DNA of 34,181 nucleotides from positions 1 to 34,181 of the forward strand of contig JAFGKM010000012.1 of NCBI GenBank assembly GCA_016928555.1, written 5' to 3'. This stretch comes from Candidatus Omnitrophota bacterium. GTDB taxonomy: Bacteria; Ratteibacteria; UBA8468; B48-G9; JAFGKM01. The position numbers and the translations under genes are program-made. Numbering within the stretch: the first letter of the stretch is position 1; each line of letters begins with the position of its first letter. This document shows, in pieces, positions 9,865 through 12,051 of the stretch. The notes below the pieces were generated by a model. That model was given only the letters and a program-made list of their open reading frames with translations, searched no databases and had not been told where the DNA came from.

Positions 9865-11169
9865 TTACTCGTAGCGGAGGGCCTCGATAGGGTCAAGATA
9901 CGCCGCCTTCCTTGCCGGATATATGCCGAAGGTTATTCCTATGGCTACGGATATGCCGAAAGAGACAAGTATTGACCAGTAGGTGATTATGGTAATCATA
10001 GATGCAAATTTCGTAACAATATTGGGTATTGCCATCCCGAGAAGAACGCCTATAAACCCGCCGATTGAAGAAAGAATGACGGCCTCAATCAGAAACTGGC
10101 TTATTATGTCCTTCCGTTTCGCTCCGAGGGCCCTTCTTATGCCGATTTCCCTTGTCCGTTCGGTCACTGTCGCAAGCATGATATTCATAATGCCTATGCC
10201 GCCGACAACGAGAGAAATGGCCGCGATGGCTCCGAGAACAATGTTAAATATTTTCTTTGTGTGCTCCGCCTGCTTGAGCAGTTGAAGGGGAACGAGTATT
10301 TCGTAATCCTGCTGTTTGTGGTTTGCGCGCAGGATATCCTCCGTGATGGCGGCGGTAGTGATAATTTGCTCGGTTTCGGCAACCTTAATAATCAAACGGT
10401 GGTATTTAACCCAGCTCCTGTCTATAGACATCCTGCCGCCTCTTCTTTCGCCGGAGGTATATTCACCGTAGTATATCCTCTGGGTGGTAAGCGGCATGTA
10501 TACGTCAAAATTGATATCCTCCGCTTCAAACCCCGTGCCGGATACGATTGCCCGTTCGCTGACGACTCCTATAACCGTAAAATAGTTCAGTCCTATCCTT
10601 ATGGTTTTTCCTATGGGTTCTTCAAGCGGAAAAAGCTTATTTTTTATGGAGGAGCCGAGAACGGCATAGGGTTTTATCATTTCATAATCAACCTGGTTGA
10701 AAAACCTGCCTTTCACCACAATGAGGTTCATAACTCCGGGATATCCGGGGTACGTTCCAACCAGGCGGGCGCTTGTGCTTTTGTCCAGATACCATACATC
10801 CCTTTTATCCTCCCATGTTGGAACAATCTGCTCAACCGAAGGGATGCTTTTTATCCTTCTCAAATCAAGCGGATTAATACCGTAAGCCGCGAGGAACGTT
10901 GTCTGCTGTTCAGTGCCCGGAGCGGGCGGAGGCTTTACCGCTCTGACAATTATGTTATTGCTCCCGAGCTCCTTAATTTTCTCCCTGGCTTCAAAACTCG
11001 CTCCCTCCCCGATTGCAAGCATGGCTATGACGGAAGCAACACCGAATACAATGCCCAGCATTGTAAGGAGCGAACGCAGTTTATGGAGATATATGTTCTT
11101 CCATCCTGCCCTGAAAATCCTTATTATGTGAAGTATGTTAAATCTCATTTTCCTCTTCTCCCCTCTCAT
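9865..11169 (-). CDS. ABC transporter permease, MacB/FtsX family
   Basis: 434 aa; [81 protein letters not shown] start at a later Met (MRFNILHI) is possible. Confidence 0.92.
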
Positions 11170-11218
11170 ATAAAAAGAGAAGAATCCTTAAGCGAATTGC
11201 AAGGAGCAGTTACAACAC

Positions 11219-11316
11219 ACGGTGAAAAGCAAAAGCGTTCGGACGAATACCTTGCTCGGAGCTGTCTGAACCCGCCAAAGAGGCGGGTGAGTTCTCCGAG
11301 AGTCCGATTTCACCGT
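11219..11316. repeat. Four-segment nested inverted repeat between the MacB-like permease and ATPase genes
   Basis: Arms: ACGGTGAAA 11219-11227/TTTCACCGT 11308-11316; TCGGAC 11239-11244/GTCCGA 11302-11307; CTCGGAG 11255-11261/CTCCGAG 11294-11300; ACCCGCC 11270-11276/GGCGGGT 11282-11288. All perfect. Confidence 0.85.
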
Positions 11317-11376
11317 AGTTTTGTCTGCGCCGCAGCACCTGAGCGAAGGGATTGCTTCCCTTTTTATATTCACCCT

Positions 11377-12051
11377 TCACTCCACAATTTGCCCGTCAAG
11401 TATCCTTATGACTATATCTCCGTAGTCGGCCACTTTGCTGTCGTGGGTTATGACAAAAAGAGTTGTGCCTTCCTCATTGAGTTTGTTAAGAAGCTCCATT
11501 ATCTCCCTGCCTGTTTTCGTATCAAGGTTGCCGGTAGGTTCGTCCGCAAGGATAAACGCCGGATTGTTTATCAGCGCCCTCGCTATCGCAACACGCTGCT
11601 GCTGGCCTCCCGAAAGCTCGGCGGGTTTATGCCTCACCCTGTCCTTAAGCCCGACAACTTCAGCCATAACGGAAGCTCTTTCAGCTATGCTCTTTTCGTT
11701 TATCCCCTGGTAAAAGAGCGGCAATCCTATGTTTTCTATCACGGTAAGGTGGGGTATAAGATTGTAGGATTGAAAAATGAAGCCTATTTTCCTGCTTCTT
11801 ATTTCGGAAAGGCTGTCGTCGCCAAGAGAAGATATTTCCTTCCCTTCCATGATATATTTTCCCGTAGTCGGAGTATCAAGGCATCCCAGAAGGTTCAGCA
11901 TGGTTGTCTTGCCGCTCCCCGAAGGACCCATAAGCGAGATGTGCGACCCTCTTTCTATGGCAAGGGATATATTTTTCAAAGCGGGTATCTTTATCTCGCC
12001 TATCTTATATATTTTGCTTATATTCTCAAACTCTATTAAGTTATCTGCCAT
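11377..12051 (-). CDS. ABC transporter ATP-binding protein, MacB/LolD type
   Basis: 224 aa; Walker [10 protein letters not shown], signature [15 protein letters not shown], Walker [13 protein letters not shown]. Confidence 0.95.

Follow-up and report, generated by a model that had tools for sequence, protein, structure and literature searches.

A palindrome inside a transporter operon is probably an old copy of a non-autonomous mobile element that adjoins ribosome-binding sites

Results

A large palindrome fills the gap between a transporter ATPase gene and its permease gene

The window (the whole stretch of 34,181 nucleotides analysed here) carries on its minus strand a transporter operon in which a MacB-type ABC ATPase gene (11377..12051; PF00005, 1e-33) is followed by a MacB/FtsX permease gene (9865..11148; PF12704, 1.8e-37; PF02687, 1.2e-21). 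The operon extends upstream with an HlyD-type protein and an outer-membrane efflux protein. In the ORF listing, the permease start is given as 11169, which falls within the element described below; since the N-termini of the relatives align with MRFNILHI, the start was placed at 11148, where the ATG is preceded by the Shine-Dalgarno sequence GAGAAGAGG. An imperfect palindrome of 202 bp (11168..11369, minus strand) takes up almost the whole 207-bp gap between the two genes; it sits between the ATPase stop codon and the permease ribosome-binding site (RBS) and is read in the operon direction.

The first-pass annotation had described four nested arm pairs of 9, 6, 7, and 7 bp, all of which were found exactly where it had placed them: ACGGTGAAA (11219..11227) with TTTCACCGT (11308..11316), TCGGAC (11239..11244) with GTCCGA (11302..11307), CTCGGAG (11255..11261) with CTCCGAG (11294..11300), and the covarying inner helix ACCCGCC (11270..11276) with GGCGGGT (11282..11288). 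As had been noted, AGCAAAAGCGT (11228-11238) interrupts the left arms, whereas the right outer arms follow one another without a break. The splitting stretch is not a recent insertion, since these 11 nt form a side hairpin in every aligned copy (ACGCTTTTGCT on the minus strand, 11228..11238; helix 6 of the covariation test). The hairpin proved to be larger than first noted because a fifth, outer arm pair of 15 nt with 93% complementarity (11168..11182 on the permease side, 11355..11369 on the ATPase side) extends the palindrome to about 202 bp. Between its end at 11168 and the permease ATG lie 19 nt, and a similar distance was found for the copy on contig C92 of the same genome.

Folding of both strands, which had been proposed as a check, gave a strong fold on each. 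A stretch of 141 nt folds at -56.5 kcal/mol on the plus strand and at -57.4 kcal/mol on the minus strand, with z = -4.4 against dinucleotide shuffles in both cases and none of 200 shuffles as good, and 221 nt of the minus strand fold at -83.8 kcal/mol (z = -4.8). The remark that no poly-T follows the palindrome is true directly beside the four arms, but the operon-sense strand ends with TTCTCTTTTTATAT, whose T-run pairs with the left A-run in the predicted fold. A terminator scan found none on the operon strand and a sole terminator-like match on the opposite (plus) strand; a GC-rich hairpin followed by an unpaired T-run is not seen on the operon strand of the window copy.

The junction of the two genes was compared with that of 11 relatives having an orthologous ATPase. 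The permease ORF overlaps the ATPase ORF by 11 nt in seven of them and starts 5-8 nt after it in two, with the ATG chosen automatically; L028 was read as 133 nt from an internal ATG, and L026 was not scored. No relative shows an element of about 200 bp at this junction. The expectation that the ATPase and permease genes are otherwise tightly coupled was thus borne out, as they overlap or lie 5-8 bp apart in relatives versus the gap of about 207 bp here, which indicates that the window copy is an insertion and that the relatives carry the empty site. By arithmetic, the window gap minus 202 bp leaves about 26 nt, in line with the relative G005.

The palindrome belongs to a multi-copy family with a conserved structure

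Hereafter, G000 denotes the genome of the window, and G017, G019, G023, G024, G025, and G027 denote other genomes of the same order. A DNA search at E <= 1e-12 found eight places in G000, including the window. Four of them are contig ends inside the same core, which is expected because assemblies break at repeats. Among 40 relatives, the same search gave sequence-level matches only in G017. The search of the genome and its relatives with a covariance model, another proposed check, extended the family to six of the 28 genomes of the order (G000, G017, G023, G024, G025, and G027). In the window, this model (R1) matches the conserved structured core (11203..11326, minus strand) with 114.7 bits and E 2.0e-25, a score that is not independent because the window copy is among the model's own sequences. 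Nothing near threshold was found with the Rfam covariance models. A scan of genome contigs for the conserved-core pattern returned 90 stretches, all from MAG JPMR_metabat.36, which I infer to be G017, and the same scan of viral contigs returned none.

The family is most abundant in G017, with at least 109 covariance-model matches and 107 near-full copies counted. Joining of the matches gave 93 sites, some of which may be one site seen from overlapping loci and are thus not all strictly independent, and 34 of the 93 are arrays of two to four units. The tandem period is 299 bp in one array checked. In the array at L086:4214-5369, four units of about 299 bp stand in tandem before one gene, and a linker joins the tail of the element to the left end of the next unit. 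The congeneric genome G019 (77% complete) has no copies, suggesting that the expansion in G017 is probably recent. The genes flanking a G017 copy fall on separate contigs of G019, so that a direct comparison of filled and empty sites is lacking within the genus. Single units are about 200-360 bp in length, non-coding, and multi-copy, as expected for a MITE, and the copies that were read contain no transposase ORF.

Covariation was assessed with 22 copies from G000 and G017. In these, 97.1% of the helix cells pair, compared with 27-49% when the partner is slid, and changes on both sides occur in 53 cells, compared with 16.4 +/- 3.3 in shuffles, a control that leaves the relatedness of the copies in place. 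The inner stem, for example, appears as ATTCGCC/GGCGAAT, GCTCGCC/GGCGAGC, and GCCCACT/CGTGGGC. Conservation between families of the order extends to the loops GAACTC, TCAGACA-like, and AAGGTAT. Uniqueness in the genome and arms that do not covary had been named beforehand among the grounds for giving up the repeat-family and regulatory readings; the element is multi-copy and its helices covary. MITE hairpins can be homogenised at the DNA level, and the covariation is therefore no proof of a function as RNA.

Better-preserved copies have inverted ends and 8-bp target duplications

The better-preserved copies are bounded by the inverted ends GGTTCTGTCAAA / GGTANTGTCAA, and terminal inverted repeats (TIRs) were found in G027, in G017, and in a second family of G000. 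The G027 copies are 251 bp in length with GGTTCTGTCAAA ends; a perfect 8-bp target-site duplication (TSD), TCGGAAAA, is present at L171/L204, and the flanks of L163 match at seven of eight positions. In G017, L092 has the perfect 8-bp TSD GCACTTTT. Both ends were scored at 31 G017 sites, where the identity of the flanks has its maximum at exactly 8 bp (0.415, versus 0.281 for mismatched pairs); many of these TSDs are degenerate, however, and the right ends were located by a fuzzy search that allowed up to four mismatches. A TA target of the IS630-type MITE kind, which the ATAT edges of the window copy had suggested, was dropped given the 8-bp duplications of the better copies.

The second G000 family was found by a search with end sequences and has the ends GGTTCTGTCAAAATACGG and GGTACTGTCAAG. 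A perfect TSD, GAATATTA, surrounds its 126-bp copy at L208. This family is a high-copy hairpin element with 17 matches, many of them at contig ends, distributed over contigs C10, C12, C26, C36, C39, C50, C54, C59, C62, C63, C65, C80, C88, and C90 (loci L199-L217 and L236-L246). The window copy has CGCTCAGGTGCTGCG in common with it. The window copy has neither GGTTCTGTCAAA ends nor an 8-bp duplication, and has the 15-nt outer arm pair instead. Thus, its membership of the transposed unit rests on the homology of its body (78% to the C92 copy) and on the empty site.

Two stray end-like sequences were also observed. Near the left edge of the contig, positions 56-87 of the window (minus strand) read GGTACTGGCAAGAAACAGATGAAAAATTTTGC, a close match to the left end GGTACTGTCAAGAAACAGATGAAAAAGG of the second G000 family and a probable remnant or insertion edge. 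At L198:1503 (contig C1 of G027), an isolated TTTGACAGAACC directly precedes a start codon, within the 3' end of the upstream gene and without an element; it is either a chance occurrence or an ancient remnant.

One end lies at a nearly constant distance before start codons

How are the copies placed relative to genes? Six-frame ORFs were used to score the neighbours in G017. Of 62 sites scored there, 60 have a downstream gene that reads in the same sense as the element, and both exceptions (L105 and L109) have sense starts preceded by a Shine-Dalgarno sequence at 20 and 22 nt. The upstream gene is sense at about 52 of 61 sites. The downstream gene is also sense in all six G000 copies that could be read, and in the second G000 family it is sense by ORF at seven of nine sites, the other two (L208 and L237) having a Shine-Dalgarno sequence and an ATG at about 23 nt by eye. 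In all four G027 copies, the core runs antisense to those neighbours that could be scored. The orientation is therefore not universal, as in these copies it is antisense to both neighbours.

At 52 of 60 scored sites in G017, the gene-side end lies 19-25 nt from the start codon, with a mean of 22.2 and an sd of 1.2 for these 52, and several of the eight outliers are due to a wrong end match or a wrong start and read as about 23 nt by eye. The Shine-Dalgarno sequence begins about 12 nt after the gene-side end in G017. The distance to the start codon varies no more than that to the Shine-Dalgarno sequence, and either of the two may be the feature recognised. By eye, eight of nine G017 sites with a native upstream gap of more than 30 nt or with divergent neighbours have the end at 21-24 nt, and most copies of the second G000 family lie 23-24 nt before start codons. 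In G027, the distance is 22 nt at L175 and 20 or 23 nt at L163. No start codon lies close to the G000 copies on C77, C2, and C36. The downstream genes are unrelated (gyrA, pgk, DHDPS, PDH E1, LemA, MlaD, and others), and the shared function expected of genes under a riboswitch was not found among them. Downstream of the hairpin, G017 tails such as those of L053 and L070 are purine-rich and have a TTGACA motif and an AAGACT...AGTCTT hairpin; such a tail belongs to the element and is a possible outward promoter.

No candidate transposase tracks the element

Among PF01797 (RAYT/Y1), PF12762 (IS1595), and PF00872 (Mutator), no transposase tracks the presence of the element. Y1 transposases are encoded in G000 and G017 and also in many element-free genomes, and were not found in the element-bearing G025 (65% complete) and G027 (62% complete). 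Mobilisation by IS1595 was rejected, DDE_Tnp_IS1595 (PF12762) being absent from the element-bearing G000, G023, G025, and G027. No autonomous copy with these ends was found in the element-bearing genomes. In G019, an IS256/Mutator-type locus (L227:374-2318) has the ends GGTACTGTCAAGTTTTTTCTGTAA / GGTTTTGTCAATTTTTTTCTGTAA and a fragmented transposase. Its ends begin with GGTACTGTCAAG and GGTTTTGTCAA, the first 12 nt being the same as in the left end of the second family in G000; its own two ends agree at 21 of 24 positions, and a matching TSD was not found. An integron attC site and a group II intron were also considered and set aside, as no integron array was seen and the element is too short.

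Discussion

I conclude, with a probability of roughly 0.8, that this is an old copy of a non-autonomous DNA element of the MITE type, with the palindrome forming its body, and I take the insertion of such elements to be aimed at the neighbourhood of ribosome-binding sites. The first-pass suggestion of a MITE/REP-like mobile palindrome gained support as to the MITE, given the multiple copies, patchy distribution, empty site, TIRs, and 8-bp TSDs, but not as to REP/RAYT. More tentatively, and at a little short of even odds, the mobile element may have a conserved RNA-like body and be targeted in a set orientation to about 22 nt upstream of start codons, with the body or its RNA possibly choosing the target. 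A DDE-type transposase acting in trans would move the element, the IS256/Mutator type being a candidate lead, and the autonomous partner would be a transposase gene bounded by GGTWCTGTCAAR ends. By inserting beside ribosome-binding sites and in one fixed orientation, the element would leave both neighbouring reading frames intact. In the window, the insertion would have separated two genes that overlap or almost touch in relatives, and the polycistronic mRNA would carry a hairpin of about 200 nt before the permease RBS. Such a hairpin should break the translational coupling of the ATPase and permease ORFs and may expose the operon RNA to processing. The element may act in cis on the downstream gene, a possibility kept in play by its conserved fold, its biased orientation, and its fixed distance from the start codon.

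The same mobile element might instead insert nearly at random, with its orientation and spacing left by purifying selection between stop codon and RBS; the surviving orientation would then be the one whose RNA or outward promoter harms least. Most G017 copies begin less than about 40 nt from the upstream stop codon, which leaves little room for tolerated insertions where operon gaps are short, and the fixed spacing could partly reflect selection there; three frames are closed by stops at the left end, and many tails have the -35-like TTGACA. Selection alone would permit larger distances where gaps are long, but of the nine sites with native gaps of 37 to >800 nt or divergent neighbours, eight hold 21-24 nt, and the mostly 23-24 nt of the second G000 family also counts against it. 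I regard this alternative as a live one with the odds leaning against it.

The remaining explanations fare worse. A repeat of the REP/BIME type, moved by a RAYT (Y1) transposase, would account for a palindromic, intergenic element in G000 and G017, both of which have Y1 transposases. It is hardly credible in view of the size of about 200-360 bp, the failure of Y1 to track the element (a co-occurrence limited by the incompleteness of the genomes), and the TIRs and 8-bp TSDs, which are not known as REP features. A covarying structure with conserved loops, mostly sense and immediately before the RBS, is what a non-mobile cis-regulatory RNA leader of a regulon (riboswitch- or attenuator-like) would present; with functionally unrelated downstream genes, no copies in G019 against at least 109 in G017, tandem arrays, TIRs, TSDs, empty sites, and no Rfam match, this is quite improbable as the primary identity. 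As for the window copy alone, the strong hairpin before a U-rich stretch on the operon-sense strand could make it a terminator or attenuator setting the ATPase:permease ratio. The pairing of that U-tract with the left A-tract in the predicted fold and a terminator match on the plus strand only make such a role unlikely.

Small hairpin elements are common in bacteria, and the literature covered describes them as scattered, intergenic or intragenic. What is unusual about the MITE-type element proposed here is its constant and mostly oriented distance from start codons: related families in three genomes, two of them in G000, converge on one end 22-23 nt before the start codon, mostly in sense. 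No published match for this spacing was found in the literature searched, a weak negative given the poor coverage of subscription journals. If targeting is true, it would be a bacterial counterpart of positional retrotransposon targeting, by which an element could spread harmlessly through dense operons, to more than 100 sites and even before the essential genes gyrA and pgk, with the reading frames unbroken. If selection is true, the copies would provide a map, of near-base precision, of where a bacterial leader tolerates insertion. In either case, the palindrome observed here splits a transporter gene pair that normally overlaps.

Among known systems, the ERIC/IRU elements of enterobacteria are intergenic, long-hairpin, and non-autonomous, 127 bp in length with a 7-bp TIR and TA at the termini, and the pages of Delihas 2007 (PMC2229807) drawn on here also describe them inside operons, co-transcribed, and with an orientation that matters for the effect on mRNA stability. 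The present element is likewise an intergenic, long-hairpin, non-autonomous element that can lie within operons; it differs in its 8-bp TSD, GGTTCTGTCAAA ends, and fixed start-codon spacing. According to the same pages, the Correia/NEMIS elements of Neisseria, of about 107 or 155 bp with a 24-bp TIR and TA at the termini, are transcribed with their neighbours and processed by RNase III, and outward promoters have been proposed for them (PMC2229807). These too are hairpin MITEs, but the portion of that source drawn on mentions no fixed RBS spacing for Correia (PMC2229807). ERIC and Correia offer precedents for the effects on mRNA that may occur near the window copy. The pneumococcal BOX, RUP, and SPRITE sequences are high-copy, small mobile repeats of intergenic regions that can be transcribed within operons, and their orientation effects concern expression, not the spacing of insertion (PMC3049150). 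In a comparison by description, no homology to the present element was noticed; its G017 arrays consist of whole units of about 299 bp in tandem. Insertion sequences of the IS256/Mutator group generate TSDs of 8-9 bp, a length shared by the present element, and the G019 locus of this type has ends similar to those of the second G000 family. Ty3 and similar retrotransposons insert at a fixed distance upstream of tRNA genes. The likeness to Ty3 lies in positional, gene-sparing insertion and not in membership, since the present element is a bacterial DNA-type element that adjoins the ribosome-binding sites of unrelated protein genes.
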